Made by a program: the position numbers and the translations under genes. Shown here piece after piece: positions 40,104 through 62,757 of a stretch of DNA of 64,000 nt. The DNA is from Bacteroidota bacterium (GTDB lineage Bacteria; Bacteroidota; Bacteroidia; Bacteroidales; JABHKC01). The stretch lies in assembly GCA_018692315.1 (NCBI GenBank), contig JABHKC010000088.1:1-64000 (forward strand), given 5' to 3'. The notes under the pieces were generated by a model, which saw only the letters and a program-made list of their open reading frames with translations, did no database searches and was not told the DNA's origin. How positions within the stretch are numbered: position 1 is the first letter of the stretch; each line of letters begins with the position of its first letter.

Positions 40104-41903
40104 TTAGTTTTTAAGAAATTGTCCGCTAAATACTTTCCCGGTAGTTTCTTGAATTCTAATAAAATATAAACCAGCATCAAGATTACTTATGTTCAATCTG
40201 TTGCTAATTAGTTCTTGAATATTTATTTTTTTACCTAAAATATTATAAATTTCAATAGATTGTACCAATTCTGAATTATTGATATTCAAAAAATCTGATG
40301 CAGGATTTGGAGATAATTGAATTGTCTCAAAATTGTTTTCTCCAATTGCAGATGGTTCTGCCAAAACAATATTGTCGAAGTAGAACATTGCGCTGGAAGA
40401 ATGTCCTTCACCACCCAATTGAACAACCACCTGATCGTAGTTTACGCTATCGGGAATTGTACTGAAATCAAATTGGAGAGTTACCCATTGGTCAAAATCG
40501 CTAACTGTGTTAACTATCTCGGTTTGTGAAGCCCACGCATTTCCTCCCATCAAGCTATTTTGCAATTTTATGGCAGTTGTCGCAGCCAAATCTCCGGTGT
40601 AATCATTAGTTGACGGAAAATACACATCAATACTGAAAATATTTTTAGAAGTAAGATCCATCCTATGATCTAAAATGAACTGGGCATTTGTCCATTCGAA
40701 GCTGCCCGAACGATTGTATTCTGCAACATTATTGTTTGCATCTACAGGGTCGGCTACTATTGTCAAATCCACTAAATCCGGATCCTGAAATTTCCAATCA
40801 TTGATTGTTCCGTAACCGTCATTTTCAAAATTGTCTTGCACATCAGCCGCTAACAATGGTTTTGGGCCTGCAACAAGGCTATATAATTCAATATCATCGA
40901 AATAGAATTGGCCTGTTGCAAAGTGTCCTTCACCACCAAATTGAACAACCACTTGGTCATAGTTTACACTATCGGCAATAGAGCTAAAATCGAAAGTAAG
41001 AGTTAGCCATTGGTCAAAAAGGATGACTGTGTCAATTAGTTCTGTTTGAGTAGTATATGCATTTCCTCCTAGCAAACTATTTTGCAATTTGATTGCTGCT
41101 GTGGGAGCTAAATCGCCTGTATAATCATTGCTCGATGGGAAATATACTTTCAAATCGAATAAATTCTTTTCACTTAGGTCCATTCTATGTTCTAAGACAA
41201 ATTGAGTATTAGTCCACTCGAAAACACCTGTGCGATTATAGTCAACAACTTGATTTGTAGGTTCAACAGGGTCAGCAATGATTGTTATATCTACTAAATC
41301 GGGATCTTGAAATTTCCAAGTGTTAATAGTTGACCATCCGTCATTTTCGAAATTATCCTGTACATCTCCAGCTAATAATGGTTTAGGACCTACGGCTATT
41401 CCCAATGATGGACCCACAATATCGTCAAAATAGAAAAGATTGTCGGTAGTGGAAGAAAAGTCGAAGAAAATTACAACTTTATTATAAATACCGGATTGTG
41501 AGCCTGCAAAATCGAATTCTATCTGCTCCCAAACATTAGCTGCTGAAACAGTTGCACTCACTTCTACAAAAATCCCAGCATTTGCAGCATCTTCAAGTTT
41601 AAAAAGCACATCGCAGGCAATAGGTGAATAAACTTTTAGCTGAAAAATAGAGCTTGAATCGAAGCTTATATAATCGGCAAGTTCGCCATAAACATGTGCC
41701 CACTGTTCTTGCGATCTTTGCCATTCTCCAACATTTGCGCTGGTATTGATACCTGTTTGATCGGGATTTGCTACCATTGCAGGAACATTTGGCCATCCAA
41801 TAAAATCTACATTTTGATTTCCATCAAAATCATTGTAGATTGATTGTGCATTAAGCATTGTTGCAATTAATAAAATTGCAGAAATTGTAAATAATTTTGT
41901 CAT
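40104..41903 (-). CDS. Three-module T9SS (type A) carbohydrate-binding candidate
   Basis: A 599-residue exported protein. The signal peptide covers residues 1-19. Three jelly-roll-like modules follow: a divergent first copy (about 21-170), then two close copies (172-345 and 346-519). The close copies start with GPKPLLA(G/A)DVQDNFEND and share KFQDPDLVD, VYFPS(S/T)NDYTGDLA, AIKLQNSL and SVNYDQVVVQ. The last 75 residues are a T9SS type A sorting domain (LSPNPASDFLNI, IYNILGKKI, LDAGLYFIRI). The strand motif PSTNDYxGDL is also in the C-terminal module of the PKD lipoprotein at 61285-62757, which links both to the same locus and suggests glucan binding. Last gene of the locus; a terminator follows. 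Confidence 0.85.
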   Translation of the reverse strand: MTKLFTISAILLIATMLNAQSIYNDFDGNQNVDFIGWPNVPAMVANPDQTGINTSANVGEWQRSQEQWAHVYGELADYISFDSSSIFQLKVYSPIACDVLFKLEDAANAGIFVEVSATVSAANVWEQIEFDFAGSQSGIYNKVVIFFDFSSTTDNLFYFDDIVGPSLGIAVGPKPLLAGDVQDNFENDGWSTINTWKFQDPDLVDITIIADPVEPTNQVVDYNRTGVFEWTNTQFVLEHRMDLSEKNLFDLKVYFPSSNDYTGDLAPTAAIKLQNSLLGGNAYTTQTELIDTVILFDQWLTLTFDFSSIADSVNYDQVVVQFGGEGHFATGQFYFDDIELYSLVAGPKPLLAADVQDNFENDGYGTINDWKFQDPDLVDLTIVADPVDANNNVAEYNRSGSFEWTNAQFILDHRMDLTSKNIFSIDVYFPSTNDYTGDLAATTAIKLQNSLMGGNAWASQTEIVNTVSDFDQWVTLQFDFSTIPDSVNYDQVVVQLGGEGHSSSAMFYFDNIVLAEPSAIGENNFETIQLSPNPASDFLNINNSELVQSIEIYNILGKKINIQELISNRLNISNLDAGLYFIRIQETTGKVFSGQFLKN

Positions 41904-41987
41904 TTTGTCAATTTTTAGTTACTAATTAATTCATTAATTTTTAAAGTTATTCATAAAATATAATATAAAGATCAAAATTGCATTAAT

Positions 41988-43463
41988 TTAATTGCCATTT
42001 CTTCTTGCTTCCAATTCAATTTTTACTTTTTCTAAAGTTTTATCGTCAAGTTTATACCAGAAAAGTAAAACTGCTGTAATTAGATATAAAGTTCCTGGTA
42101 TAATTGAAAAAAGTAATCTCAAACTGAGGATAGCTTCATCGGTTTGTTCAATTGCAGCTCCATCATAGTTTGCTATTGTTAAAATAAATCCAGCCAATCC
42201 GGTTGCAATTCCACCACCAAGTTTTTGTGCAAAAGTAGTTGCCGAGAAAAATAGTCCGGTTGCTCGCCTGTTGTTTTTCCACTCAGAAAAATCTGCTGTA
42301 TCGGCAATCATTGCCCATAGTAGAGGTATTGTTGGTGCAATAGCCAGTTTTGATAAAATGTTAATTGTATGAAGCATATAGAAATCTTCGGGACCAGGAA
42401 TATACAATGCAATAGTGAATATTCCGGCAATAGCCGAACAAACAATATAAACATCGCGTTTCTCAAATTTTTTGGTAAGCGGACGAGCCAGCAATACACC
42501 AATTATTAAAGCTATAGTAGTTGAAGTATAAAGGATAGTTGCATCGTTTTCAGATTTAATAAAATATTTGAAATATTGATTTATCACTGCAGCTTGCAAG
42601 AGAATTAGCACGAATGTTATAATTCCTAAAACAAATAGGATAATCCATGCTTTCATACCGAAAACATTTTTTATATCTTCTCTCAGATTGCTTTTTTGAT
42701 TTTTTGGAGGTTCTATCCTTTCTTTTGTTGAAAAATATGAGATTAAAAGCAGAATAACTCCCAAAACACCTAAAATAATTGCAATGAGTTGAAAAGCATT
42801 TTGCTCAAATTGTGTTATCATTCCTTGCAGAGTTCCGGTTGAGTCTAACAATTTGGCATCTGCCCAATTATATAGCTTAATGAAATCTAATGCTTTTGGC
42901 GAAAGATTAATAGATTTTGCGTAAGCTAAAACATCATCTAAAATCAATAGATTTTTGAAATACATTGTAAAACTAACAATGAACATTCCTGTAAATCCGA
43001 GAAAGAAACGATACTGATTTAGCAAAGTCCTTTGCCCCGGGTCGGCAGTCATAACTCCGGAGAGTGCTGAAAATGGCAGGTTTACAGCTGTATAAAATGT
43101 ACTAAGCAGCAAATATGCACATGTAGCATAAATTATTTTTCCGGTCTCTTCCAAATCCGGAGTAGTGAACAACACAACGAGAGAGACACTCAATGGAACT
43201 GCAAACCATAACATGTATGGACGAAATTTGCCATATTTTGTTTTTGTGCGGTCAGCAATTATTCCAATCATAGGATCTGAGATTGCGTCCCAAATTCGGG
43301 CTACCATCATAATTGTTCCGGCAGCAGCAGCTGAAATTCCATATACATCTGTAAAATAGAAAAACAAAAACATACCAGCCATATCCCAAGAAAAATGAGA
43401 AGCAGTATCTCCCAATCCGTATGAGAATTTTTCTTTGAATGATAGTTTTGAATTATTGCTCAT
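41988..43463 (-). CDS. GPH-type sugar:cation symporter 1
   Basis: A 491-residue inner-membrane transporter with twelve predicted spans, of the glycoside-pentoside-hexuronide:cation symporter family within the major facilitator superfamily. The N-terminal KEKFSYGLGDTASHFSW and the loop motif DAISDPMIGIIADRTKTKYGKFRPYML (here in two parts) are characteristic of MelB/XylP relatives. It would bring di- or oligosaccharides from periplasm to cytosol. Its place in the locus points to beta-glucan oligosaccharides, by inference. It is 36 nt downstream of the GH17 lipoprotein gene. Confidence 0.92.
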   Translation of the reverse strand: MSNNSKLSFKEKFSYGLGDTASHFSWDMAGMFLFFYFTDVYGISAAAAGTIMMVARIWDAISDPMIGIIADRTKTKYGKFRPYMLWFAVPLSVSLVVLFTTPDLEETGKIIYATCAYLLLSTFYTAVNLPFSALSGVMTADPGQRTLLNQYRFFLGFTGMFIVSFTMYFKNLLILDDVLAYAKSINLSPKALDFIKLYNWADAKLLDSTGTLQGMITQFEQNAFQLIAIILGVLGVILLLISYFSTKERIEPPKNQKSNLREDIKNVFGMKAWIILFVLGIITFVLILLQAAVINQYFKYFIKSENDATILYTSTTIALIIGVLLARPLTKKFEKRDVYIVCSAIAGIFTIALYIPGPEDFYMLHTINILSKLAIAPTIPLLWAMIADTADFSEWKNNRRATGLFFSATTFAQKLGGGIATGLAGFILTIANYDGAAIEQTDEAILSLRLLFSIIPGTLYLITAVLLFWYKLDDKTLEKVKIELEARRNGN

Positions 43464-43499
43464 CCTATAAAGTTTTAATAAATTTTTATAAATGTATGA

Positions 43500-45344
43500 C
43501 TATCTTGAATAATAAATATTTTTTACAAAAATCTGTTTTCCATCAAAGTTTTCAACTCCTCTAAAAAACAAAAGAGCGGTTAAATCATTTAAATTTGCTC
43601 CTTTTTCTAATATAGCAATTGGAATAGAAAAACTTGCCCAGTTTTCTTTTATTCGATATTTACTTTCTGGTGAAAAAATTACATAGTTGTTTGATTGCGT
43701 GCCTTTTGCAAATATACCTGTCTGAAACCCAAGCTTGAAGGAAGAATTAGTGTTTCCTTTAATTTCAAAATTTAAATTTCCGTTTACAAATTTCGACATA
43801 TCCTCACCAATTCCATCAGATTCTAATTCTATTGCACAACCCCACCAATCTCCATGTCCGCTGGTAATTTTTATTATTCTTGAAGAGTTCAGTTCGATAT
43901 CGCAAGTTCCCTCCCATGAATTTAATTTTAGTTCAGAACATGGAAATGTCATATCATTAGTTTCATCAGGAATTAAAGATTCACTAAGAACAACATAGGT
44001 ATTTTCCGAAACAGTTTCTCCGGGCTTTCGATTAATATTTGTTGTTGTAATTGATTTATCCCCAATTTCAGCTTTTGAAGGCGGCGGAAGAATTTCAGAA
44101 AAAAACACGGTTTCATCTCCATTATATGTTTTGCTGATAGAAATTCCATTTCTGGTCAATCCTTCAAAAATTCCTTCATCGACTAAATCCCACAATGCGT
44201 ATTTTGCTTGCCCGTTTAATTTTATTAGTCCGAAATGATTTTCTGAACCCAAAGTATCAGCTTTATCTTTCCATTTCTCATCAAAAGCCTCAAAATAGAA
44301 ACATGACATTCCAGCCTCTAATGTCCAGTCTCTCATATGTTTATAAAATAGTGCTTGTTTATATTCATCGGCAGCCTGCGAACCACCCTCTCCATATAAA
44401 GAAGACGAAATGCTTGCCCATCCTGTTTCGCCAATATGAATGGTTTTTTCTGTATTTATACTGGAAATATAATCAGCCGCAGTTTGAAATTGAGATATTG
44501 CATAATTTTTTGCCCTTAACATTCCGGCATCAATTTTTTCTACTGTAGAGAGTTTTTCCTCTTCTGCCGGAACCATCCAAAAAGTTGGATTGTAGTGGCT
44601 GTCGTGAAATGGATACGTGTGGAGTGACACATAATCGACTGCATTTATCAATTTAGATAAGTCTTCGGTATGATAACTTTTGTCGCGGCCTCCCCAGGAT
44701 TCATAATTGTCAGAACTTGTAATCCAAATATTTGCAGGTAAATTTCCATTCATTTTTAAATTTTGCAAATATTCGACCCAATGAAGGATAATTTTGGCTT
44801 GCACAAAATATTGAACTGCCCATTTGACCATAGCTTCGTTTCCTACTGCAATAATCTTGACAATATCAGGGTATTCGTTTGCCATTTTTACGGCAGCTTG
44901 AATTTCAGCATTATTATTTTTCAAATTTCCCAAAGAATGATTGCGATTTTCGGTCCATGCTCCCTTGCATTCTATCCAGGTTCCTAACATAACAAACATT
45001 TCAAAATCTGAATCCTCATTTTTTAATTGACTAATTGCTTCCAACAGATTGGAAACTTGCAAAAATTGTTGAGAATTGTATGTTCGTATCAGCTTTATCC
45101 CTATTGCAGATAAGATTTTCATATCTTCTTTCAGCTCAGCTACAGAGGGAACTATTTCTCGTGTGTTTTGTCTATAACCTCCGTATGAAATTGCCGGGTA
45201 ATCAGGATTTCCTAAAATGTCTGCTGCTCCTATTTCTATTGATTTTTGTTGCTTGTTCATACAACTGTTTGTGAAAATTATTGTAAAATATAATAATATT
45301 GCTTTCGTAAATGTTCTCATTTTCGGTAGATTTATTGTCCTCAA
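43500..45344 (-). CDS. GH17-like glucanase lipoprotein
   Basis: A 614-residue lipoprotein with a GH17-type barrel (endo-beta-1,3-glucanase or glucanosyltransferase family). The general acid is Glu170 in IIAVGNEAMVKW and the nucleophile Glu306 in IHIGETGWAS. The helper segment SLHTYPFHDS and the terminal strand CFYFEAFDEKWK fit the family. The C-terminal 170 residues (about 445-614) form a beta-rich domain that may be a carbohydrate-binding module. The annotated start gives eight extra residues; the internal Met at residue 9 (start at 45320) makes a better lipoprotein signal with a lipobox ending at Cys28 (FTNSC). The upstream symporter gene abuts directly. Confidence 0.83.
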   Translation of the reverse strand: MRTINLPKMRTFTKAILLYFTIIFTNSCMNKQQKSIEIGAADILGNPDYPAISYGGYRQNTREIVPSVAELKEDMKILSAIGIKLIRTYNSQQFLQVSNLLEAISQLKNEDSDFEMFVMLGTWIECKGAWTENRNHSLGNLKNNNAEIQAAVKMANEYPDIVKIIAVGNEAMVKWAVQYFVQAKIILHWVEYLQNLKMNGNLPANIWITSSDNYESWGGRDKSYHTEDLSKLINAVDYVSLHTYPFHDSHYNPTFWMVPAEEEKLSTVEKIDAGMLRAKNYAISQFQTAADYISSINTEKTIHIGETGWASISSSLYGEGGSQAADEYKQALFYKHMRDWTLEAGMSCFYFEAFDEKWKDKADTLGSENHFGLIKLNGQAKYALWDLVDEGIFEGLTRNGISISKTYNGDETVFFSEILPPPSKAEIGDKSITTTNINRKPGETVSENTYVVLSESLIPDETNDMTFPCSELKLNSWEGTCDIELNSSRIIKITSGHGDWWGCAIELESDGIGEDMSKFVNGNLNFEIKGNTNSSFKLGFQTGIFAKGTQSNNYVIFSPESKYRIKENWASFSIPIAILEKGANLNDLTALLFFRGVENFDGKQIFVKNIYYSR

Positions 45345-46790
45345 TTATTTTTTACCTTGATGTTTTACTTTCCCTCTACGTTCAATTAATGCTGCTCTAA
45401 TTTCTCGAGCTTTTTTCTCGGTAACATCATATTTCCACATCATGATTACTGCCATCAAACCAGTGAATATCGGAATTACAATGTCGGCAATTCTGAGGTT
45501 TGTAATCGTTTCAACCGTTTGAACTGTTACATCTTTATCAAAACCAACTAAATTTAAAACTGCTCCGCTGGTAAGTAATGCTACAGCAGTTCCCAATTTA
45601 ACCATCCACCAGTAAACTGCTCCAAAAGTGCCTTCTCGCCGTGTTCCATTATTTAGTTCATCGAGGTCGCAAACATCGGCTGTCATAGACATCATCAAAG
45701 TAAACAATCCACCAATTCCGAAAGAAATTAGAGGAATCGGGAGAAACATCAAATATGGGTTATCAGGACTAAAACCCCACCATTTTAAGGCATATCCTAT
45801 AATTGAAATAATTGTAGCAACAAGAAAAGCATTCTTTTTACCAATTTTTTCAGAAAGAAAGGTAATTATTGGAATCACTAAAAAAGCAGTTGCAATTGCA
45901 CTAACAGTACCAAACCAAGCAGGCCAATGTCCGGCAGCTTCGGTATCGCCGTTAAACAGGTAAAAAATAATAATAAAGAAGGCAAATTGTGCAATTGTTT
46001 GAAAACCATTAAACACAAAAAAGGTAGCTCCACACAAACGTAAAAAAGGTTTACTTACGAAGGTCTGTTTTATTCCTTTAACAAACCCTTTAGTGTTCTC
46101 AGTTAGATCTTTCCACGACATTTTTGAATTTTGTTTGGAAGCCGGTGGAATAAGCTCTTTGCAAAATAGAGCAGGCATTATTCCGAGAAGCATGCACAAG
46201 CCTCCAACCCAAATTGAAAGATTCCTGGCACCTTCGGGAGCAGTGTCGTACAGAGATTGGTCGTAAATTATTACCCAAAACCAAGGAGCAATCATCCATG
46301 CAATTTGTCCCATCCATTGCGAAACTGCCATCAGTCTGGTACGTTCGTTATAGTCTGGGCTCATTTCGTAACCTAAACCTATTAGAGGGGTTGCAAAAAT
46401 TGTATATCCTATATAAAAAACCACTGATAAACTCAAAAAGAAATAGAAATTATAGCTTTGTCCATTTTCGGGATACAACTGCCACATGTACATAAAAGTA
46501 ATTCCGGTGATTACGCTTCCCAGAAAAATATATGGTTTGCGTCTTCCCCATTTCGATCTGGTATTGTCGGAAATATATCCCATAATTGGATCTGTAAGTG
46601 CATCTAACAAGCGTGGAATTGCTGCCAATAATCCGGCAAGAAATGGATCCATTTTTAAAGCCAAAACAAGGATTATCATAAATACTCCTAATGCTGCCGG
46701 AAAAAGTTGGTTTGCCAGATGTCCCGATCCGAAAGCTATTTTCTGACCGAAAGGAACAATATCTTCATTGGCAATTTTATAAGGTGTCAT
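45345..46790 (-). CDS. GPH-type sugar:cation symporter 2
   Basis: A 481-residue inner-membrane transporter of the same glycoside-pentoside-hexuronide symporter family as the gene two positions downstream. It shows PFGQKIAFGSGHLANQLFP at the N-terminus, DALTDPIMGYISDNTRSKWGRRKPYI near residues 63-88, and a repeat of the helix-loop pattern in the second half. The two paralogues differ strongly, so they probably carry different products (for instance glucose, gentiobiose or laminari-oligosaccharides). The stop codon directly abuts the start region of the GH17 lipoprotein, which suggests cotranscription. Confidence 0.92.
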   Translation of the reverse strand: MTPYKIANEDIVPFGQKIAFGSGHLANQLFPAALGVFMIILVLALKMDPFLAGLLAAIPRLLDALTDPIMGYISDNTRSKWGRRKPYIFLGSVITGITFMYMWQLYPENGQSYNFYFFLSLSVVFYIGYTIFATPLIGLGYEMSPDYNERTRLMAVSQWMGQIAWMIAPWFWVIIYDQSLYDTAPEGARNLSIWVGGLCMLLGIMPALFCKELIPPASKQNSKMSWKDLTENTKGFVKGIKQTFVSKPFLRLCGATFFVFNGFQTIAQFAFFIIIFYLFNGDTEAAGHWPAWFGTVSAIATAFLVIPIITFLSEKIGKKNAFLVATIISIIGYALKWWGFSPDNPYLMFLPIPLISFGIGGLFTLMMSMTADVCDLDELNNGTRREGTFGAVYWWMVKLGTAVALLTSGAVLNLVGFDKDVTVQTVETITNLRIADIVIPIFTGLMAVIMMWKYDVTEKKAREIRAALIERRGKVKHQGKK

Positions 46791-46843
46791 TTAATTGTCA
46801 TTATTATATAAATTTTCAGAGTTCTCATCTTTCATTCTCACAT

Positions 46844-48364
46844 TTACTTTAGCACAATTGTCTGAATTGCTTGTGGACTAATTTTTACTTCAGCTTGCTT
46901 ATCTTCAATTGAAAGTTTAAAGTTTTTGGCTTTCAGACTCATATTTAAGACAATAACTACAATTGATCCATCAGGATTTTTTACTGCTGTAAGCATCAAA
47001 TCTTTGTCGGTATTTTCAAAACCTATCCTTTCCGAATTTGGTTTTATGAATTTGCTAAAATGAGCAATAGTGTAATATAGAGGCGTGAAGTAAACTTCGT
47101 CGAGTTCCGGATCGACAATTACAGGTGCAACACACCAGTTTTTAAACCAGTTTGGTCCGCCTTGTCTGTCGAGAACCATGTTCCAGTCTATCCAGCCTTC
47201 AACCCAATTATTCAAACAACCAATAATATCTCTTGCATATCGATACACAGGAGCATATTTTGGATGTTTATGTTTGTCTTTATCTGGAGCCCAATCCAAG
47301 CCCCAGTCGGTTGCTTCTTTTTTCCAGTACCATTCGTCTTCTTTCCAATGTGGAACTTCCGAGTCGACACATGCTTCCGATTGAATTATATGTTTGTTTG
47401 GAGCAATTTCGTGAGTAAAATTTAAGGATTCGGGAAACCAATCGGTTGTGCTTGCATACCAGTGTATGGCAGTTCCGTAGAAATATTTTGAAGATTCTTC
47501 GTCTGCAAACATAATCTTCGCCCACTCGACTAATTCCTCGCCACGATTTTGATCGTAACCGAAAATTTTCGTGTCGTGGCCATCTGTTTCAAGTTTTTGC
47601 CCAAGGTGATTTTTTACAAAATCGACCATTTCTTCGGCATTAAAGTGCATGCTTTCCCAATTGTTGCCATTTCCGAGAGGTTCGTTTTCGACAGTTACTC
47701 CCCAAATATCAATTCCTTCTTTTTTATATTCAGTTAAATATTTCGAGAAAAACAAAGCCCAGGTATCGTAATATTCCGGCAATAATTTTCCTCCAACCCA
47801 ACTTTTGTTGTCCTTCATCCAAGGAGGTGCCGTCCAGGGCGATGCTATTATTTTGAAACCATTTTCAGATTTCTCCATGGCTTGTTTAATCATTGGGATT
47901 ATATCATCACGATCTTCATCAATTGAGAAATTCTGCAAATCTTTATCGCCTTCCACAGGTGCATAAGAATAATTCTTCAAAGAGAAATCGCAGGAATTTA
48001 TATGTGTTCGTGTTAGAGAATATTTTGCTCCATTTGTTCCAAAATATGCATCAATAATTTGATTTCGTTTTTCTTCGCTTAGCTGATTTAGCAAATATGC
48101 AGAAGATTCGGTAAATGAGCCACCAAAGCCTTCGATAGTTTGAAATTTTGTTTCAGGAAATATTTTGATGATTTCTTTGGACTCTTCCTCCGGGAAATCA
48201 GTTATTTGTTTAAGTTTATTTCCGCTGGCTGATGTTTCGTAAACTTCAAGCGATAGTTTTTTTTGTTTCATGCTGCATCCTCCATAAACTACGATGAGTA
48301 TTACGATTAATAAATTTCCAACTGATTTCATTTTATATCTTTTATTACATTTTTCTTCCAACAA
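46844..48364 (-). CDS. GH30 family glycosidase lipoprotein
   Basis: A 506-residue lipoprotein with a GH30 (alpha/beta)8 barrel and side beta-sandwich. The acid/base is Glu228 in VTVENEPLGNG and the nucleophile Glu330 in IIQSEACVDS. The entry FQTIEGFGGSFTESSAYLL and SPWTAPPWMKDN are classic GH30 signatures. Bacterial members of this subgroup include beta-1,6-glucanases and beta-glucosidases, and a beta-1,6 role would fit the branches of laminarin, by inference. The first ATG gives an 11-residue charged extension; the Met at residue 12 (start near 48331) starts a lipoprotein signal ending at Cys30 (VYGGC). Three bases separate the longer form from the upstream gene. Confidence 0.88.
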   Translation of the reverse strand: MLEEKCNKRYKMKSVGNLLIVILIVVYGGCSMKQKKLSLEVYETSASGNKLKQITDFPEEESKEIIKIFPETKFQTIEGFGGSFTESSAYLLNQLSEEKRNQIIDAYFGTNGAKYSLTRTHINSCDFSLKNYSYAPVEGDKDLQNFSIDEDRDDIIPMIKQAMEKSENGFKIIASPWTAPPWMKDNKSWVGGKLLPEYYDTWALFFSKYLTEYKKEGIDIWGVTVENEPLGNGNNWESMHFNAEEMVDFVKNHLGQKLETDGHDTKIFGYDQNRGEELVEWAKIMFADEESSKYFYGTAIHWYASTTDWFPESLNFTHEIAPNKHIIQSEACVDSEVPHWKEDEWYWKKEATDWGLDWAPDKDKHKHPKYAPVYRYARDIIGCLNNWVEGWIDWNMVLDRQGGPNWFKNWCVAPVIVDPELDEVYFTPLYYTIAHFSKFIKPNSERIGFENTDKDLMLTAVKNPDGSIVVIVLNMSLKAKNFKLSIEDKQAEVKISPQAIQTIVLK

Positions 48365-48367
48365 AAA

Positions 48368-52721: not shown

Positions 52722-52737
52722 TTTTTTGTTTCGAATA

Positions 52738-55002
52738 TTATTTTAAGAAAAAACTTTTTGTTTGTAATTCCGAAGGTCTGCCACCAATTAATATTGAAAA
52801 TTCTCCCGGTTCAGTTATCCATTTATTATCTGTCCCTACAAATGCAAAATCATCAGTACTTAGTTTGAATTTTATAGATTTTGACTCTCCGGCTTTCAAT
52901 CCAATTTTTTTAAATCTTGCTAATCGTTTTATATCTGGAGAAATTGTTGCAAAATGGTCGCGAGTGTATAACTGAATAACTTCTTTTCCGAAAATTTCTC
53001 CTGTATTTGTAATCTCCACTTCGATGGTAATTGTATCTCCTTTTGAAAAAATACTATCGCTTAGAGTAGGTTCGGAATATTCAAAACTTGTATAACTTAG
53101 TCCTTCGCCAAATTCATATTGAGGATTAAAACCGCCAAGACTAAATTCTTTATCCATAGCATCCATTCCTTTATAATTATATTTCAAGATTGAACCTGAA
53201 TATCGGGGATAAGTATATGGCAATCTGCCACTTGGATTGCAATCGCCGAAAAGCAAATCTGCAATAGCTTTTCCACCTTCTTGTCCGGGCAAATAAGCCA
53301 TTATAATTGCCTTAGACAAAACTTCAATTTCACGAATGATTCTTGGTCTTCCTTCAAGAAGTAGCAAAACAATTGGTTTTCCTGTGGCAGCAAGATTTTT
53401 TATTAATTTCAATTGCACTTCTGAAAGCTCCAATTCCTCTATGTCGCTTGGTTTTTCGGTAGCTGGTTTTTCTCCAATACAAGCTATTATTATATCGCAT
53501 TCTTGCGAAAGAAAAACTGTGCTATCAATATTTATATCTTCAGTAAAGCTTGTTCCTTGTCCATAGTGTACATTATTTTTCCCAGCTTTTTCTATAATTG
53601 CATCTAGAATGGTAGCTTTGTTAGTATCGTTATAATTCTCCTCCTGTCCACTCCATGTTCTTGACCATGCACCATTTAAGAAGTTTATTGAGTTTGCAGT
53701 TGGTCCGCACACTAGAATCTTTTTTGTTTTGTCGATTGGCAGAGTTTCATTTTCATTTTTTAATAAGGTAATACACTCTTTGGCAGCTTCGTAGCTTGCA
53801 TTTGAAAATTCTTCTGAAGCAAATAAAGGATATTGTTCTGGTGATGTATAAGGTTTTTCAAATAATCCTAACTCAAATTTCACTTTTAATATCCTACGAA
53901 CAGCATCATCTATGCGTTCAATTGGGATTTCGCCCTGTTTGACCAATTCAACAATATCTATTGCAAAACTTTCATTGTAAGGAACCATACACATATCCAT
54001 ACCTGCCAAAACTGCTAATTTCGCAGCTTCTTTATTATCTTTAGCTACATTATGAGCATATACTAATTTTGTAAGATCGTCCCAATCTGAAATTACAAAA
54101 CCATGAAATTCTAATTCACCTTTCAACAAATCAGTTATTAAATGATGATTGACTAAACCTGGAATTCCATTTACGGAACCGGAATTTATCATAATTGTTT
54201 TTGCCCCAGAGCGAATTCCTTCCTCAAATGGAGGCAGATAATATTGTCGAAGTTCATTTTCAACAATATTTGCAGTCCCACGATCTTTTCCATTGTTGGG
54301 ATTTCCATATCCAATAAAATGTTTCAAACATACTGCGGCTTTTGTATTGTCTGACAAACTATTTCCTTGCGATCCTTTAATGAAAGAATTTGTCATTTGT
54401 GTAGTCAAATAAGTATCTTCACCAAAAGTTTCAAATATTCTTCCCCACAATGGTTGTAATGAAATATCGAGCACCGGTGCATAATTCCATGGGATAGATG
54501 AGGCTCTCATTTCGTAGGCTGTAATTTCGCCCATTTTTTCAGCATGTTTTGCATTCCAAGTTGCGGCACATGCAATTTGATGCGGAAATAATGTTGATGA
54601 AGCTGTATAATTTGCACCGTGAACTCCATCGTTTCCAAATAATATTGGAATCTTTAATCGAGATTTTTCTAAGGTAAAATCCTGAATTTGACTAATAATA
54701 TTGTACCATTCTTCTTTTGTTGGCGGATATTTTCCTTTGTTTTGAATTGAGCCAATATGATACTTCAAAATCAATTTATTTAATTTTTCAATATCAATTT
54801 CAAGCGAATCAGCATTGCTCCAAAACGGTCCTTTACAAACCGCTGTTAGACCAATATTAGTCATTTGACCAACCTTTTCTTCTAAGGTCATTTGCTGAAT
54901 AAGCTCCTCAATTTTGTTTTTCCCTTCATTCTTCACATTTCCACAAGAGACGAAAAGCAAAATCCCGCTCATAAATATTATTGAAGATAAATATCTTCCC
55001 AT
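52738..55002 (-). CDS. GH3 family beta-glucosidase lipoprotein
   Basis: A 754-residue lipoprotein (lipobox ending at Cys20, LLFVSC) with the three-domain layout of long GH3 enzymes. The TIM-barrel domain begins with IEELIQQMTLEEKVGQM and has LFGNDGVHGANY, the KH motif (Lys227-His228 in CLKHFIGYG) and the nucleophile Asp306 in FVISDWDDL. The alpha/beta sandwich domain carries EKPATEKPSDIEELELSEVQ. The C-terminal fibronectin III-like domain includes FEYGEGLSYT-like EFGEGLSYTSFEYS. It removes glucose from the non-reducing ends of beta-glucan oligosaccharides, probably in the periplasm. It begins the enzyme part of the operon, after two strong hairpins downstream of susD. Confidence 0.93.
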   Translation of the reverse strand: MGRYLSSIIFMSGILLFVSCGNVKNEGKNKIEELIQQMTLEEKVGQMTNIGLTAVCKGPFWSNADSLEIDIEKLNKLILKYHIGSIQNKGKYPPTKEEWYNIISQIQDFTLEKSRLKIPILFGNDGVHGANYTASSTLFPHQIACAATWNAKHAEKMGEITAYEMRASSIPWNYAPVLDISLQPLWGRIFETFGEDTYLTTQMTNSFIKGSQGNSLSDNTKAAVCLKHFIGYGNPNNGKDRGTANIVENELRQYYLPPFEEGIRSGAKTIMINSGSVNGIPGLVNHHLITDLLKGELEFHGFVISDWDDLTKLVYAHNVAKDNKEAAKLAVLAGMDMCMVPYNESFAIDIVELVKQGEIPIERIDDAVRRILKVKFELGLFEKPYTSPEQYPLFASEEFSNASYEAAKECITLLKNENETLPIDKTKKILVCGPTANSINFLNGAWSRTWSGQEENYNDTNKATILDAIIEKAGKNNVHYGQGTSFTEDINIDSTVFLSQECDIIIACIGEKPATEKPSDIEELELSEVQLKLIKNLAATGKPIVLLLLEGRPRIIREIEVLSKAIIMAYLPGQEGGKAIADLLFGDCNPSGRLPYTYPRYSGSILKYNYKGMDAMDKEFSLGGFNPQYEFGEGLSYTSFEYSEPTLSDSIFSKGDTITIEVEITNTGEIFGKEVIQLYTRDHFATISPDIKRLARFKKIGLKAGESKSIKFKLSTDDFAFVGTDNKWITEPGEFSILIGGRPSELQTKSFFLK

Positions 55003-55154: not shown

Positions 55155-55261
55155 ATTAACCAACCCATTTACATTTATAAGATTTAAATAATCTCACTTG
55201 GTATTTCAATTTATTATTAACTAATTAAAAACAGGTATTTTAGTGAATTTTAATTTATATT

Positions 55262-56815
55262 TTAGTAACCTTCATTCTGAACAAATAATCCACCGGATAA
55301 ATCTATTTCGGTTTGAGGAATTGGCAAAAATCCTTTTGTTACGGCATCGAATGTTACATCGAAAAGCACTTGATCTCCAATATATTGAGAACCATATATG
55401 CCAACAGTAAGTTCCTGACTTGCAACATTCATTCCTTGACGTATCAAATCAAAATAGCGAATTCCTTCGAGCGAAAGCTCTAACCTACGTTCATTCAAGA
55501 TATTATCAATAGTTGCAGATACGCTTGCCAATCCGACTCTTGCTCTTACTTTATCAAGATATTGCTGAGCATTAGCACTTCCAAGCTCGGCAGCCATAAG
55601 TAAAACATCAGAATATCTGATTACTCTATGGTTGCATGTACGGTTTAGCTCTAATTGTCCGTCTGCGCTTTGGTGTTCAGCATCGGAGCTATATTTTTTT
55701 GAAAAATAACCTGTATGTTGATATCCTGGAACCAAATCTCCATCAAGACTATCTTCAAACAAAACTGTTTTATATAAACGAGGGTCTCCTTGTAAATCAT
55801 CAACTAATTTCTGGCTCACCGTACCGAAGCTCCATCCTCTGTTCCAATTTTCTGAACCTGAAACACGAGGGCCTTGCATTTGGGCCGACAAATTGCCGTC
55901 TCCTCCACGTACAAAATCCCAATCCCACCAGGCATAAGAATCGCCGTGGGATATTTCAAAAACTGATTCTTCACCAAATTCACCGGCAAGTTTAAAATTT
56001 GTTTCATAATTTTCGAATAAATCATGGGTGCTATTGGTGATAAGGTCTTCAAGGTATAGTAGAACTTCTGCTTTGTCAATAGTAGTACCGTTGGCATCGA
56101 GATCTGTTTTATATACGCCATTGTAAAATAAATATACTCTGGCGAGTAGTGCTTCTGCAGCCCATTTTGTAACTCTGCCTGATTCATTAGTTGGTATTGA
56201 TTCGGGCAAATCATTAATTGCATCAACCAGATCGGCAGCAATTTGGTTGTAAACCTCAGTTGGTGTATTTTGCGTCTGGCTATATTCCGATGGTCCTTTA
56301 ATGGTTTCGGTAAGCAATGGGATATTTTCGAAAAACCTTACTTGTTCGAAATAGAAATAGGCTCTTAAAAATTTACACTCTGCAATGGTTCGTATTTTAA
56401 ATTCTTCAGAAACTACTATATCTTCAATTTTTTCGAGTAGGAGATTTGCTCTATAAATTCCATTATAGTTTTTAATATAGATAGCATGAACTATTTTATT
56501 AGTAGTAGGAATATTAAATGTATTTAATTCATTTTCATCCATACCATCGTTGGCATCAGAACCTCCTGCATAAGAATCGTCAGAGAGAATGTCAGCCATT
56601 GTAACCAATGGAGCCCATGAGACATTAGGGCTTGATTGAAAACCCAATACATCATATACAGCTACCAATGCTTGCATAGCATCTTCTTCAGTCTGATAGA
56701 AATTTGAAGATACTTCTCTGTCTAATGGGTAACGCTCTAAAAACTCTTCACTGCATCCGGTTGAAAATGCGATTAGAATTACTGATATTATTATATATAT
56801 ATTTATTTTTTTCAT
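55262..56815 (-). CDS. SusD-like surface glycan-binding lipoprotein
   Basis: A 517-residue SusD/RagB-family lipoprotein (lipobox ending at Cys21, FSTGC). The family start CSEEFLERYPLDREVSSNFYQTEEDAMQAL is clear. TPR-like helices follow (LLARVYLFYNGVY near 223-235), and the C-terminal region has NERRLELSLEGIRYFDLIRQG and FLPIPQTEI. It sits on the cell surface as the lid of its SusC partner and captures glycan for import. It starts 11 nt after the susC stop, so the two are translated together. Confidence 0.96.
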   Translation of the reverse strand: MKKINIYIIISVILIAFSTGCSEEFLERYPLDREVSSNFYQTEEDAMQALVAVYDVLGFQSSPNVSWAPLVTMADILSDDSYAGGSDANDGMDENELNTFNIPTTNKIVHAIYIKNYNGIYRANLLLEKIEDIVVSEEFKIRTIAECKFLRAYFYFEQVRFFENIPLLTETIKGPSEYSQTQNTPTEVYNQIAADLVDAINDLPESIPTNESGRVTKWAAEALLARVYLFYNGVYKTDLDANGTTIDKAEVLLYLEDLITNSTHDLFENYETNFKLAGEFGEESVFEISHGDSYAWWDWDFVRGGDGNLSAQMQGPRVSGSENWNRGWSFGTVSQKLVDDLQGDPRLYKTVLFEDSLDGDLVPGYQHTGYFSKKYSSDAEHQSADGQLELNRTCNHRVIRYSDVLLMAAELGSANAQQYLDKVRARVGLASVSATIDNILNERRLELSLEGIRYFDLIRQGMNVASQELTVGIYGSQYIGDQVLFDVTFDAVTKGFLPIPQTEIDLSGGLFVQNEGY

Positions 56816-56826
56816 ATCTGTTTATT

Positions 56827-59800
56827 TTAGAAAGTTAAAGTTGTTCCAAGACGGAAAGTTCTTGCTTGTGGATAAATACCTCTATCTATACCTATATCAA
56901 ATGAACTTCGTGCACCTATTTCAGGATCTGCTCCGGAGTATCCTGTAATAGTAATCAGATTTTCACCAGAAATATAGAAGCGCCAGTTTGTGGCTTTAAT
57001 TTTATTTAAAATGCTATTTGGCAAATTGTATCCAATCTGCAGATTTTTAAGCCTAACATAAGTGCCATCCTCAATATACAGATCTGATACTCTGTAATTA
57101 TTATTAACATCGCTCCATGTATATCTTGGTATTTCATCGGAAGTTCCTTCGCCGGTCCAGCTATCTAAAATTTCTGTTGTTCTGTTCGTATAGAATAAAT
57201 CCTGTCTTTGTGAGCCATTAAAAATGTCGTGGCCAATGGCTGAGAATATCAGAAATGATATATCAAATTGTTTGTAATCGAGCGAACCATTAAAGCCTAA
57301 AGTCCAATCTGGTGTAGGATTTCCAATCATTGTTCGGTCGTCAGGTGTGATTTCATTATCGCCATTTACATCTACGAATCTTACATCGCCTGGCTCGGCA
57401 AGAGGTTGTAATAATTCACCATTAGTACCTATGTGTTGGTAAACTTCTGTTTCATTTTGGAACAATCCGTCTGTTTGGTATCCGTAGAAATGCGAAATTG
57501 GTAATCCTTCTTCGGCACGGGTAATTGTTCCTGCAACTGCCCAGTCGGCTCCCCAAATAATTCCCTCAGAGTTTCCAATATGGGTCATTGTATTTTTATT
57601 ATAAGCTGCATTTACTCCGAATGAATATTTCATATCACTTAGGGTATGCCTCCAATTAACTGACATTTCGATACCTTTGTTTTGAACGCTTCCTACGTTT
57701 GAATAAGGAGCACTATTTCCAACATGTGCAGGTATAGGTATTATTTCCAATAAATCATTGGTATTTTTAATATAGAAGTCGAATGTTGCAGTTAATCTAT
57801 CATTATATGCACCAAAGTCGAGTGCAATATCTATTTGTTCTGATTCTTCCCATTTAATATCAGCATTTTCGATATATTCAGGATACATGCCGATAAGCCT
57901 GCCTCCTCCAAATATATATCCAAAATCTGGTGTTGACATAACCGAAATATACTTATATGGACCGATATTATCATTTCCATTTATCCCCCAGGATGCTCTA
58001 AGTTTTGCAAAACTAAGCTGACTTATTTGCGGAAAAAAAGATTCATCGGAAATCAACCATGAAACACCGAGCGAAGGGAAAATTCCAAATCTATTATTGG
58101 CACCAAAATTTGACGAACCATCTCGTCTTAAAATTCCTGTAAAGGCATATTTACTTTTGTAATCATAAGTAATTCTTCCAAACACTGAGTAAAGGGCATA
58201 ATGTGAAGCTCCTCCATCCGCTTTCCATGCAGTATCTGAAGCCATATTTAGGTAAACGTTTTCAGGGTCGTAGGTTGAAACCATGGCATTAAAACCACTC
58301 AAATCGTCAAACCTGTCTTCCTTTGCTGTGGTTCCAGCAAGTACAGAAAAATTATGATCTTTAATCTTCTTTGAATAAGTAAGAGTGTTTTCTATTTGCC
58401 AGTTGTACCATCTTTGCATGTACTTATTCACTGAAGTTTTTTCAGTATTATATTGTGCACCATTCATATAATACAATGGTTTGTATGATCCGCCATTTCC
58501 ATATGCCAAATCGATACCCATGCTTGTTTTAAAAACCAAACCTTCAAATGGAGAAATTTCAGCAAACACATTTCCTACAATTTTATCTAATTTGTACTCG
58601 GATGTTTGTATTTCTAATAATGCCTGTGGATTAACTATTTCTGCTCCGAGATAATTTGAAATTCCATAAACATTTCCATCTTCATCTACAACCACCGGTT
58701 GATTTGAGTAAGGCTGTTCGGCAAGTATATCGGGATCTGTTTCGTAAAGAGGTGTAAGCGGATCTAAGTTTAATGCACTACTAAATACGCCATTGAATGA
58801 TTCATTACTGCCTATACCTCTTTTTGTGATACTTGAGTAGGCGAATGTGTTTCCAAATTTAAACCAATTGGTAACTTTATGCGAGCTGTTTAGGCGGGCT
58901 GTTAATCTATCGAATTGCGATTGACTGCCACCTATTATACCTTGCTGAGAAAAATAAGAAATTGAAGAAGAATAAAATGATTTTTCGTTCCCTCCTGACA
59001 CGTTAATATCGTGGTTTACTATAGGAACGTTTTTTTCGAAAATATAGCTTTGCCAGTCAGTATTATGTGCCACCTCATTCATATCAAAAGGTTCATCTTG
59101 GTTGGCATTTCTTGCACCTTGGTTCATCAATTCGCGGTATTGGTCTGCATTTAACATATCCAGAGTATTTGCAACATTTTGTATTCCGTAATATCCTGAA
59201 TAGCTTACACTCATTTTTGATTTCTGTCCGATACCTGAGCCTTTGGTGGTTATCAGAACAACACCGTTTGCTCCTCTGGCTCCATAAATTGCACAGGATG
59301 CAGCATCCTTCAATACGTCCATAGATTCAATATCGCCGGGATTCAGATAATCTATTCCACTAACAGGCATACCATCTATAATATAAAGAGGGTTTGCATC
59401 TCCTGTTGTTCCGGTTCCTCTGATACGTACGGTAGGTGCTTCTCCAGGTTGCCCTGACATTTGTGTAACCTGAACTCCGGCAGTTCGTCCCTGCATTGCT
59501 TGTTCAACACGGAGAATAGGCGTTTTGGCTATCTCATCAGCATCGACAGAAGCAATAGCTCCGGTTACAACTTTCTTTTTCTGAATTCCGTAACCAATCA
59601 CAACCAGCTCTTCAAGTTCGGTATGTTCAACCATCATAACAACATCAATTGTTGCTCTACCATTAATTGGAATTTCAATAGTTTCGTATCCAATACAAGA
59701 GAATGCAAGAGTATCAGTTGGTTTCGTAACTGTGATGGAATAATTTCCTTCAAAATCGGTAATTGTTCCATTTGTTGTTCCCTTTAGTATAACAGTAGTC

Positions 59801-59925
59801 CCGGGAATACTCAATCCATCGGCTTTATCAGTAATTACTCCTTTTACAGTATGTTGTGCAAAAATACTGTTTGAAAGTAAAAATAAGGCTATGGAGAAAA
59901 TTAATTTTTGTATATGTTTATTCAT
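56827..59925 (-). CDS. SusC-like TonB-dependent outer-membrane transporter
   Basis: A 1032-residue SusC/RagA-family porin. The signal peptide covers residues 1-23. The N-terminal carboxypeptidase regulatory-like domain (about 24-110; VKGVITDKADGLSIPGTTV) is followed by a TonB-box-like segment ELEELVVIGYG, the plug (about 115-230, with the signature SIDV-type stretch DVLKDAASCAIYGARGANGVVLITTK) and the 22-stranded barrel, ending with the aromatic LGTTLTF. It imports oligosaccharides captured by SusD, using energy from TonB-ExbBD encoded elsewhere. The upstream gap holds a strong dyad and a direct repeat that could be regulatory. Confidence 0.96.
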   Translation of the reverse strand: MNKHIQKLIFSIALFLLSNSIFAQHTVKGVITDKADGLSIPGTTVILKGTTNGTITDFEGNYSITVTKPTDTLAFSCIGYETIEIPINGRATIDVVMMVEHTELEELVVIGYGIQKKKVVTGAIASVDADEIAKTPILRVEQAMQGRTAGVQVTQMSGQPGEAPTVRIRGTGTTGDANPLYIIDGMPVSGIDYLNPGDIESMDVLKDAASCAIYGARGANGVVLITTKGSGIGQKSKMSVSYSGYYGIQNVANTLDMLNADQYRELMNQGARNANQDEPFDMNEVAHNTDWQSYIFEKNVPIVNHDINVSGGNEKSFYSSSISYFSQQGIIGGSQSQFDRLTARLNSSHKVTNWFKFGNTFAYSSITKRGIGSNESFNGVFSSALNLDPLTPLYETDPDILAEQPYSNQPVVVDEDGNVYGISNYLGAEIVNPQALLEIQTSEYKLDKIVGNVFAEISPFEGLVFKTSMGIDLAYGNGGSYKPLYYMNGAQYNTEKTSVNKYMQRWYNWQIENTLTYSKKIKDHNFSVLAGTTAKEDRFDDLSGFNAMVSTYDPENVYLNMASDTAWKADGGASHYALYSVFGRITYDYKSKYAFTGILRRDGSSNFGANNRFGIFPSLGVSWLISDESFFPQISQLSFAKLRASWGINGNDNIGPYKYISVMSTPDFGYIFGGGRLIGMYPEYIENADIKWEESEQIDIALDFGAYNDRLTATFDFYIKNTNDLLEIIPIPAHVGNSAPYSNVGSVQNKGIEMSVNWRHTLSDMKYSFGVNAAYNKNTMTHIGNSEGIIWGADWAVAGTITRAEEGLPISHFYGYQTDGLFQNETEVYQHIGTNGELLQPLAEPGDVRFVDVNGDNEITPDDRTMIGNPTPDWTLGFNGSLDYKQFDISFLIFSAIGHDIFNGSQRQDLFYTNRTTEILDSWTGEGTSDEIPRYTWSDVNNNYRVSDLYIEDGTYVRLKNLQIGYNLPNSILNKIKATNWRFYISGENLITITGYSGADPEIGARSSFDIGIDRGIYPQARTFRLGTTLTF

Positions 59926-59961
59926 ATGTTTATGATTTTATTTTTAAAGTTTAAATAATTG

Positions 59962-60089
59962 AAATGCGAATATTAAATATTGCATAGAGGCAAATGCCAA
60001 ACCAGATTACTTGGGATGCAATTTTCAAAATTGTTATCCCAATGTTTCGGAACACTTTAGTTTAAAACTTCATACTTCAAATGCGAATA
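59962..60089 (-). promoter_or_regulatory. Dyad and direct repeats upstream of susC
   Basis: An almost perfect inverted repeat (60011-60042: TTGGGAT...ATCCCAA outer arms, with CAATTTT/AAAATTG inside, one-base centre) lies 86 nt upstream of the susC ATG and 79 nt past the GH16 stop. It is flanked by two exact copies of AAATGCGAATA (59962-59972 and 60079-60089). On the minus strand no T run follows the dyad, which argues against a terminator. It is a plausible operator or leader structure controlling susCD. Confidence 0.5.
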
Positions 60090-60120
60090 AATTGAGGTTT
60101 ATTTAAAAAGTCAAGATTTA

Positions 60121-61230
60121 TTACTTTTGAAATACTCGGACGTAATCAACTTTCATTTGTTGAGGGAATATCGTAGAATTATCAGGAGAGCCAGGCCAGT
60201 TTCCTCCAACAGCTATATTAAAAATGAAGAAATGAGGCTGATGGAATTCTGACATATCAGAACCTGTAATATCAATAGTATAATATATTTGATCATCAAC
60301 AAAAAATTGTATCAGATTTTCGTTCCATTCAATAGAAAATACATGATATGCCTCGGCAAAATTATCTACACTCGAGGGTAGTAAGATTGATCCTCCGGCA
60401 TCGGCGTGTTCATTATTATACTCCCAATGTAAAGTTCCATACACATGGTATTCGCCATCGTTTCCTCCAACCATTTCCATAATGTCAATTTCACCACAAT
60501 CTGGCCAACTTACCGACGAAATATTTCCTCCTAACATCCATAGTGCAGGCCAAATTCCTTTCCCCTCAGGCAATAATGCTCTTATGTCAATTCTGCCATA
60601 TTGAAATTCCTGTTTCCCTTTAGTAATTATTCTTGCTGAAGTATAATTTGCACCGCCATAACTTTCCATACGAGCTTCGATAGTGAGTACGCTATCTCCG
60701 ACCCAAGCATTTTCCGGGCGATAATTTTCGAGTTCATTGTTTCCCCATCCACCGCCTCCGGTTTCATAACTCCAATCATCAGTATTTAACTGGGATCCAT
60801 TAAATTCATTCTGCCAAACTAAGTTATATCCGGTATATTCCAAAGGCGAAAAGTTACCTTTGTTTAATGGAATTTCTTCAGCTTGAAATGCTACATTCAC
60901 CTGCCTATTTTTTTTCACATACCTACCGGAAGAACCGTAGGCTCTTATCGTAAATTCATAAATTCCTTGACCTCCGAACTTATATTCAAAATATCCTGTA
61001 TTATTTACTTCTTCAGGAGTTTCATCAGAACCGATATAAAGTTGATAAAGTGTAGCATTGTCAGCAGTAGCCTGAATTTGTACAAATCCTATTTCATGGT
61101 CAATAGACACAATCTCTACAACTAAATTTGAAGGATCGTCTGTATTAACTTCACTTTTTTCAGTACAAAAAGTTAATGTAAGGGAGAAAAGCAGAAATAA
61201 TATAATATTGTATTTTGATAATAGTCTCAT
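60121..61230 (-). CDS. GH16 beta-1,3-glucanase (laminarinase-type) lipoprotein
   Basis: A 369-residue lipoprotein (lipobox ending at Cys22, LTFC). Residues 35-115 form an immunoglobulin-like or PKD-like beta domain, then a GH16 jelly-roll (about 130-369). The catalytic motif is GEIDIMEMVG with Glu247 (nucleophile), Asp249 and Glu252 (acid/base), in the beta-bulge form of laminarinases. WGNNELENY near 162-170 and ALWMLGGNI are also typical. It should cut beta-1,3-glucan at the cell surface before SusC uptake. It follows the PKD lipoprotein gene, from which it is separated by a terminator-like hairpin. Confidence 0.93.
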   Translation of the reverse strand: MRLLSKYNIILFLLFSLTLTFCTEKSEVNTDDPSNLVVEIVSIDHEIGFVQIQATADNATLYQLYIGSDETPEEVNNTGYFEYKFGGQGIYEFTIRAYGSSGRYVKKNRQVNVAFQAEEIPLNKGNFSPLEYTGYNLVWQNEFNGSQLNTDDWSYETGGGGWGNNELENYRPENAWVGDSVLTIEARMESYGGANYTSARIITKGKQEFQYGRIDIRALLPEGKGIWPALWMLGGNISSVSWPDCGEIDIMEMVGGNDGEYHVYGTLHWEYNNEHADAGGSILLPSSVDNFAEAYHVFSIEWNENLIQFFVDDQIYYTIDITGSDMSEFHQPHFFIFNIAVGGNWPGSPDNSTIFPQQMKVDYVRVFQK

Positions 61231-61237
61231 AATAGGA

Positions 61238-61274
61238 AAAATAAAAAGCTATGACCAATACGATCATAGCTTTT
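61238..61274 (-). terminator. Terminator-like hairpin between the PKD lipoprotein and GH16 genes
   Basis: An 11-bp stem AAAAGCTATGA (61244-61254) / TCATAGCTTTT (61264-61274) with a 9-nt loop. On the minus strand the stem is followed by TATTTTTC (61243-61236). It starts 11 nt past the stop codon of the PKD lipoprotein gene. It would end or attenuate that transcript, so the GH16-susCD part may depend on read-through or on its own promoter. Confidence 0.8.
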
Positions 61275-61284
61275 ATTTATATTT

Positions 61285-62757
61285 TTAATTAAATATGAAG
61301 TTTCGGATATAGAAAACACCAGCGTTTTCATGACCTCCTCCACCAAGAGAGATTGCAAAGAAATCTAATTTATCGTTTGTGAAAGGAGTGTATGAACCTG
61401 CTCCACTTGTTGGTGAGTCTAAATTAAAAGTATAAGTAACCCATTCGTCCATTACAGTGGCTACCGTGTCATACTGAATATGTCCGGTCCACCATTCTTC
61501 AGTTTCGCTATGTTCGGCAATTACTATTGCTATATCCTTGGTTAAATCACCAGAATAATCATTTGTACTTGGAACATAAACATCCAAAGAAACAGTTGTG
61601 AAATTATCAAACTGAATATCATTAGTCATGAAAAATTGAAGCTCTTGCCACATTCCCCATCTGTCATATTGACCACAATCAGCACCTGTACCTGCAGGAT
61701 CAGTTACACCCATTGCAAAACTCATGCTATTGGCTTTTGATGTATCTAAAACAACAAAACTGGTAGATGTTTCAAAAGTATTATACATCTCAGTTGGAGT
61801 TAAATCAGGTAGGTCTTCTCCATATGGTTCCAGCACAGTAACTACTTCTGGTTCTAATGAAGGATCTGAATAACTTACATAAACAATTTTCCAGAATCCA
61901 TCTGCACCCCAGTCGAAAGAAACAACCATTAAATCATATCCGGTTTCCTGAGTAATTTCAACATTAAAGGTAGTACTGGCAACTGGTATAGTAGTTTCAG
62001 CAGCAGTTCCTAATTTTGGGATTCCTATCCAAGCGCCAAGTCCTGTAATAGTTGCAGTTCCTGTAGATGCATCATATGTGAATTGATGAGTTCCAGATAG
62101 CCAGTCGCTTACATCAACGCCATCTTTATTTATCATATTTTCTGGTAAAGCATCAAAACAAATTTCATAGTTCCACTGGTCGTTGAATACACCATATTCT
62201 CCCCAGAACACACCATTGTCATTGAATTCGTATATGCCATCGAATTGGAAAGTAAATTCCTGATTATATACACAAGGTCTTGCTCCGTCGTTTTGTAATC
62301 CTTCCCACCAGCTTCCAGGGCTTTCAGAATTTTCACCAAGCGACATTGAAACGCCTTCTCTGTACAATTTCCAAGTTTTTGAAACATCTCCTGTTAGCAA
62401 TTTATATGCATCGTCAGGATCGGTAATCGTAATATCCATAGAATACTCATGGGAGCCTGCATCATTTGTAGCAGTTAATAAAACAGTATAGTCTCCTGAG
62501 GCCGCATAAATATGTACAGGGTTTTCCTCAGTTGAACTTTCAGTATCGCCAAAATCCCAACTATATGAGGTTGCATTTTGTGAGAAGTTTGTGAATGCTA
62601 CTTCAAGAAAATTTGTAGCACCAATTTCGTACTGAAAACTTGCAACTGGCATTACTGTGTTTTCATCCTCATCCTTATCGCAAGAATTTAATACAACAAG
62701 GGAAAAAATTCCCATTAGCAAGAATATACTTGCCAAAAATTTAAAAGCTTTTTTCAT
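61285..62757 (-). CDS. PKD-domain lipoprotein, candidate surface glycan-binding protein
   Basis: A 490-residue lipoprotein (lipobox ending at Cys26, LNSC). A PKD domain (36-112; SYSWDFGDTESSTEENPVH) is followed by a middle domain (113-300) rich in tryptophan, with KTWKLYREG and PGSWWEGLQNDG, as in SusE/F-like or laminarin SGBP proteins. A C-terminal jelly-roll-like domain (about 323-490) contains VYVPSTNDYSGDL and ISLGGGGHENAG. That last domain is related to the duplicated modules of the T9SS protein at 40104-41903. No catalytic motif is visible. The likely role is to hold glucan at the cell surface. It appears to be the first gene after the regulator. Confidence 0.78.
   Translation of the reverse strand: MKKAFKFLASIFLLMGIFSLVVLNSCDKDEDENTVMPVASFQYEIGATNFLEVAFTNFSQNATSYSWDFGDTESSTEENPVHIYAASGDYTVLLTATNDAGSHEYSMDITITDPDDAYKLLTGDVSKTWKLYREGVSMSLGENSESPGSWWEGLQNDGARPCVYNQEFTFQFDGIYEFNDNGVFWGEYGVFNDQWNYEICFDALPENMINKDGVDVSDWLSGTHQFTYDASTGTATITGLGAWIGIPKLGTAAETTIPVASTTFNVEITQETGYDLMVVSFDWGADGFWKIVYVSYSDPSLEPEVVTVLEPYGEDLPDLTPTEMYNTFETSTSFVVLDTSKANSMSFAMGVTDPAGTGADCGQYDRWGMWQELQFFMTNDIQFDNFTTVSLDVYVPSTNDYSGDLTKDIAIVIAEHSETEEWWTGHIQYDTVATVMDEWVTYTFNLDSPTSGAGSYTPFTNDKLDFFAISLGGGGHENAGVFYIRNFIFN

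Follow-up and report, generated by a model that had tools for sequence, protein, structure and literature searches.

Background

Clusters for laminarin use that carry a phosphorylase have already been described. Most GH149 genes of the Bacteroidetes map to PULs and CAZyme clusters that share GH3 and/or GH30_1 together with GH17 and/or GH16, and a cytoplasmic GH17, noted for the Alteromonadales, and a pfam13347 transporter belong to the Type II clusters (Kuhaudomlarp et al. 2018, PMC5827456). The Formosa laminarin locus contains a GH149 and its cluster is induced by laminarin (PMC6246565), and the Muricauda laminarin locus contains one as well (PMC13188888). Phosphorolysis by published GH149 enzymes has been shown for laminaribiose and for longer chains; in Pro_7066 the key residues are W651-N652-D653 (the WND loop), R470-D471 (RD) and the phosphate-site H959 (PMC6771811). 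MlGH17B, a transglycosylase of 295 residues (PMC11005184), makes beta-1,6 links.

Here we report a GH149-bearing locus in a window of 64 kb, the first part of a 108.8-kb contig from a genome of 4.98 Mb that is 99.6% complete. An initial annotation had regarded phosphorolysis as lying outside the standard laminarin locus; the PULs already published with GH149 (PMC5827456, PMC6246565, PMC13188888) speak against this, as does the finding that in our sample of 392 genomes of the phylum all 38 with GH17A, the Formosa-type laminarinase, also carry GH149.

Results and discussion

Twelve minus-strand genes between 40104 and 62757 make up the part of the locus within the window, and their identities were confirmed with Pfam and NCBIfam; every gene that had been named in the beta-1,3-glucan inventory was found, on that strand and at its position. 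From 40104 upwards they are ordered as listed, followed by the part of a regulator gene that reaches the window end.

40104..41903, minus strand: secreted T9SS protein with a PKD/CBM-like N-terminal part and CBM4_9 (Por_Secre_tail, CBM_4_9)
41988..43463, minus strand: GPH1 symporter, of a different deep clade from GPH2 (TIGR00792 342.9 bits, cut-off 231; tree)
43500..45344, minus strand: GH17A laminarinase lipoprotein with a C-terminal CBM30-like domain (6fcg FbGH17A, 547 bits)
45345..46790, minus strand: GPH2 symporter, of the type fused to GH17 in other genomes (MFS_2 223 bits; tree)
46844..48364, minus strand: GH30 lipoprotein, GH30_1-like, beta-1,6-glucosidase type (PF02055)
48368..49252, minus strand: signal-less GH17 of 294 aa, probable beta-1,3-glucanosyltransglycosylase of MlGH17B type (4wtp; active-site residues)
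49242..52721, minus strand: GH149 beta-1,3-glucan phosphorylase, 1159 aa, without signal peptide (NF058639; 6hq6)
52738..55002, minus strand: GH3 lipoprotein, probable beta-glucosidase (GH3 N, C and Fn3-like domains)
55262..56815, minus strand: SusD-like lipoprotein (SusD_RagB, SusD-like_3; cysteine then SEE)
56827..59925, minus strand: SusC-like TonB-dependent transporter (Plug, CarbopepD_reg_2)
60121..61230, minus strand: GH16 lipoprotein, endo-beta-1,3-glucanase (laminarinase) type (PF00722)
61285..62757, minus strand: PKD-domain lipoprotein, probable surface glycan-binding protein (PKD_4 53.5 bits)
63059..64000, minus strand: 3' part of a 966-aa propeller/Y_Y_Y/LuxR regulator (Reg_prop, Y_Y_Y, GerE)

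The spacing between neighbours ranges from an 11-base overlap to 84 bases, with two exceptions: GH16 and SusC are 195 bases apart, and SusD and GH3 are 259 bases apart. GH30, GH3, GH16, SusC, SusD, the PKD protein and both MFS_2/GPH symporters all score above their own Pfam cut-offs, and a profile search with PF00150 found no match anywhere in the genome. For GH30, GH17A and GH149 the TTG given as the start probably lies too far upstream, as each frame has a better-placed ATG further in; the ATG at 52718 is probably the start of GH149, and the true GH30 start probably lies downstream of its TTG in the same way.

The regulator gene crosses the window end (full span 63059-65959 in contig coordinates), and the locus extends further to a T9SS GH16-like gene at contig 66173-67984. 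Beyond these two lie unrelated PrkA/SpoVR/DUF444 genes; two PrkA-like genes, SpoVR and DUF444 stand directly upstream of the locus at contig 68184-75726 (L009 8184-15726). Adjoining susC and susD, CAZyme genes and a regulator are thus found together, as in a Bacteroidota PUL, and GH149, GH16, GH17, GH3 and GH30, the families of a GH149-bearing laminarin PUL (PMC5827456), are all there. We consider it very probable that the locus serves laminarin-type (beta-1,3/1,6-glucan) utilisation and is of the GH149-bearing kind of marine Bacteroidota.

Elsewhere in the window, an RND efflux operon (HlyD, AcrB and an outer-membrane protein; 31826-39626, minus strand) is interrupted by two genes, encoding a Bro-N protein (34421-35266) and a YhcG/DUF1016 nuclease (33196-34329), both of which match PADLOC candidate defence proteins (PDC-S13, 449 bits, and PDC-S02, 405 bits). 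In a protein of 1925 aa (23996-29773, minus strand), the sole known domain is a CHU_C/T9SS type B sorting signal at the C-terminus.

Comparison with described loci

The GH149 PULs and Type II clusters of Kuhaudomlarp et al. (PMC5827456) unite SusCD or a TonB receptor with GH149, GH16, GH17, GH3/GH30 and an MFS (pfam13347) transporter, a combination that the window shares; it differs from them in the GH17/GH149 overlap, the two symporters and the CBM30-like domain on GH17A. With the Formosa laminarin PUL (PMC6246565) it shares GH149 and a set of GH17A, GH30 and MFS/GH17 near SusCD, although the small GH17 of Formosa forms part of a fusion with the MFS transporter, whereas in the window it is a separate gene adjoining GH149. 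The Muricauda PUL (PMC13188888, PMC11005184) likewise has GH149, GH16, GH30, MFS, an endo-acting GH17A, a signal-less MlGH17B, a PKD gene and a LuxR regulator; the gene order differs, and GH30 is a lipoprotein in the window but predicted to be cytoplasmic in Muricauda.

Surface, periplasmic and cytoplasmic layers

GH16, GH3, GH30, GH17A, SusD and the PKD protein each carry a signal of lipoprotein type with its cysteine. In Bacteroidetes, acidic residues following the lipoprotein cysteine direct export to the surface. Such residues follow the cysteine in SusD and in the PKD protein (DKDEDE, a stretch resembling the export signal), and none stand immediately after it in GH3 (lipobox FVSC), GH30 or GH17A, a pattern that fits surface binding by the first pair and periplasmic trimming by the other three. 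The division into surface, periplasmic and cytoplasmic layers that had been suggested for the locus is supported.

The PKD lipoprotein matches PDB 7kv5, a 'PKD domain protein', over residues 10-178; the nearest chains to the GH16 lipoprotein are the laminarinases 4dfs, 3azx and 4crq; and GH3 is nearest to BoGH3B (5jp0). The T9SS/CBM4_9 protein at 40104-41903, unnamed in the initial annotation, has an N-terminal match to 8qx6. The CBM30-like domain of GH17A scores 27.0 bits, exactly at the Pfam cut-off, and is an added part; nearly all GH17A relatives are open frames of about 416-463 aa. GH30 gives 279 bits to glucosylceramidase 3ke0 versus 196 bits to 5ngk; a BT3312-type endo-beta-1,6-glucanase was considered for this protein and rejected (259 bits against an equivalog cut-off of 700, and nearer to glucosylceramidase-type GH30).

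The GH149 phosphorylase and the overlapping GH17

On its profile and structural matches, the protein at 49242-52721 is a GH149 beta-1,3-glucan phosphorylase. It scores 1670.5 bits against NF058639 (cut-off 1150) over profile positions 2-1133 of 1134, so that the proposed GH149-like phosphorylase passes a clan GH-Q profile test, and it matches PDB 6hq6 (Pro_7066) with E=0 over residues 19-1152. Its EWND, NWRD and YWH motifs are identical to those of 6hq6 in the alignment, their positions being read with the numbering of the structure paper, for which the 6hq6 chain has an offset of 19 (PMC6771811). A hydrophobic N-terminus was looked for in GH149 and a signal peptide in the small GH17; neither was found.

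The overlap that had been noted between these two genes proved to be 11 bases long (49242-49252), and it is no start-codon artefact, as 15 relatives begin at the position that aligns with the GH17 ATG. The presence of a cytoplasmic GH17 likewise stands, with its role refined from a second hydrolase to a transglycosylase: the top PDB match is 4WTP (RmBgt17A), a beta-1,3-glucanosyltransferase, and 21 of the 22 listed active-site residues of MlGH17B are identical and carry the same numbers, including the acid and nucleophile glutamates, W191, E192 and Y136. The sole mismatch, S275 to D, falls at a variable position. The window protein also has Pro50 together with Tyr136, like MlGH17B; in the stand-alone GH17 group Pro50 occurs in 29 of 29 and Tyr136 in 26 of 29, while the MFS-fused group has mostly Ile/Leu50 and Leu136. 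Taken together, the active-site residues, positions 50 and 136 and the best PDB match indicate that the small GH17 is more likely to be a glucanosyltransglycosylase than to act as a hydrolase.

A proposed route and its alternatives

We infer the substrate, the order of steps, the direction of GH149 and the transglycosylation as follows. The PKD lipoprotein, SusD, GH16 and secreted T9SS proteins would bind and cut glucan at the surface, and SusC would import the fragments. In the periplasm GH30 would take off beta-1,6 glucose, GH17A would cut the debranched chain and GH3 would yield glucose, and the GPH symporters would pass glucose or short laminari-oligosaccharides on into the cytoplasm. There GH149 would use phosphate to release alpha-glucose 1-phosphate from them, sparing one ATP per glucose so released, and the overlapping GH17 may redistribute glucosyl blocks among the oligosaccharides. 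The periplasmic GH3 would draw on the same pool of oligosaccharides, lowering the phosphorolysed share. The genome also has GH3 paralogues, a ROK sugar kinase and an uncertain phosphoglucomutase-family gene; the likeliest phosphoglucomutase candidate (L121) is below every equivalog cut-off.

The two cytoplasmic enzymes could form a module similar to MalQ and MalP, with GH17 disproportionating short imported oligosaccharides to longer ones and GH149 phosphorolysing these, so that a larger share of the glucose would be recovered as glucose 1-phosphate. The likeness lies in the pairing of a cytoplasmic transglycosylase with a phosphorylase, and the differences in the linkages (beta-1,3, not alpha-1,4), in the unrelated families and in a pairing seen here as gene overlap and co-occurrence. 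We put this forward tentatively, because the beta-1,6 links made by MlGH17B should hinder a beta-1,3-specific phosphorylase. GH149 enzymes accept laminaribiose, so that disproportionation is not strictly needed.

A somewhat doubtful alternative is that the small GH17 is a beta-1,3-glucosidase of the FbGH17B type, hydrolysing oligosaccharides in parallel with GH149, which would give the cytoplasm one hydrolytic and one phosphorolytic branch. FbGH17B, the nearest characterised relative of MlGH17B (53% identity), has been reported to release glucose, and relatives of FbGH17B that are fused to an MFS match the window GH17 with 283-370 bits; however, the latter has the stand-alone rather than the fused-group residues at positions 50 and 136, and the PDB entry that it matches best is a transferase.

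It had been suggested that the two symporters could divide the products by linkage, beta-1,3 versus beta-1,6; in such a scheme GPH2 would carry beta-1,3 and GPH1 beta-1,6 oligosaccharides. Both genes are present, GPH1 and GPH2 fall in two deeply separate clades, and the GPH1-type adjoins GH30 in some loci (L073, L087). We nevertheless regard such a division as improbable: the GPH1-type alone stands beside GH149 in 8 loci and the GPH2-type alone in 43, so either can serve by itself, and in five relatives the GPH1-type directly adjoins GH149, a beta-1,3 enzyme. Two symporters were seen in 5 of 80 GH149 loci (the window, L002, L007, L065 and L100), a count from stretches of 12-23 kb in which distant second symporters may be missed. 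By simple hydropathy, the 12 helices of the symporters were not all resolved.

Reverse operation of the pair for storage, in which GH149 would extend beta-1,3-glucan with glucose 1-phosphate as donor and GH17 add beta-1,6 links, is very improbable, for although GH149 is reversible in vitro and MlGH17B forms beta-1,6-linked products up to DP26, with storage suggested by its authors, the genes lie within a catabolic locus among import and debranching genes, and phosphorolysis is favoured by the usual excess of phosphate over glucose 1-phosphate in the cytoplasm.

Distribution and ancestry

GH149 was found in 76 of the 392 sampled genomes of the phylum. GH17 of the MlGH17B/FbGH17B type (>380 bits) is present in 38 genomes of the sample, all of them among those 76, a co-occurrence with a hypergeometric probability of 7e-32, a value that ignores relatedness. 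We rejected this as proof of a special link between GH17 and GH149, as the GH17A control gave the same 38 of 38; co-occurrence thus marks the laminarin module as a whole rather than this pair in particular. At the order level GH149 occurs in 4 of the 60 genomes searched, the window genome included.

In the 79 further GH149 loci, the gene most often found before GH149 is GH16, at a distance of up to 300 bases in 31 loci, and the one most often found after it is GH17A, in 25. Among all 80 loci read, a transglycosylase-type GH17 directly downstream of GH149 on the same strand, and with it the overlap, was seen in the window only. In three loci (L053, L056, L062) a GH3 without an evident signal peptide lies within 20 bases after GH149, which suggests a cytoplasmic beta-glucosidase partner. 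MFS-GH17 fusions occur in L047, L048, L051-L053, L056, L062, L063, L067, L070-L072, L075 and L077. In the five examined, the GH17 homology begins about 10-34 residues past the symporter homology with no hydrophobic segment between the two parts, which suggests from sequence that the GH17 domain is cytoplasmic.

The window GH149 groups with L001 and L002 (Bacteroidia, Cyclobacteriaceae; 62% identity, support 100/100), and forcing it together with the Bacteroidales L004, L007 and L065 was rejected (p-AU 1e-44). GPH2, in contrast, groups with L007 and L065 (72-73%, support 99/91). From these differing affinities, the locus was probably put together as a mosaic of genes with different histories.

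Conclusions

This locus adds a GH149-bearing laminarin locus from a lineage in which such loci are uncommon, and the overlap of the GH149 and GH17 genes is its one unusual detail. This arrangement raises the question of why a glucan transglycosylase accompanies a phosphorylase. If the pair does not cooperate, the locus is otherwise ordinary; if it does, published descriptions of laminarin catabolism in which the cytoplasmic GH17 figures as a glucosidase or as an enzyme of storage would have to be revised.
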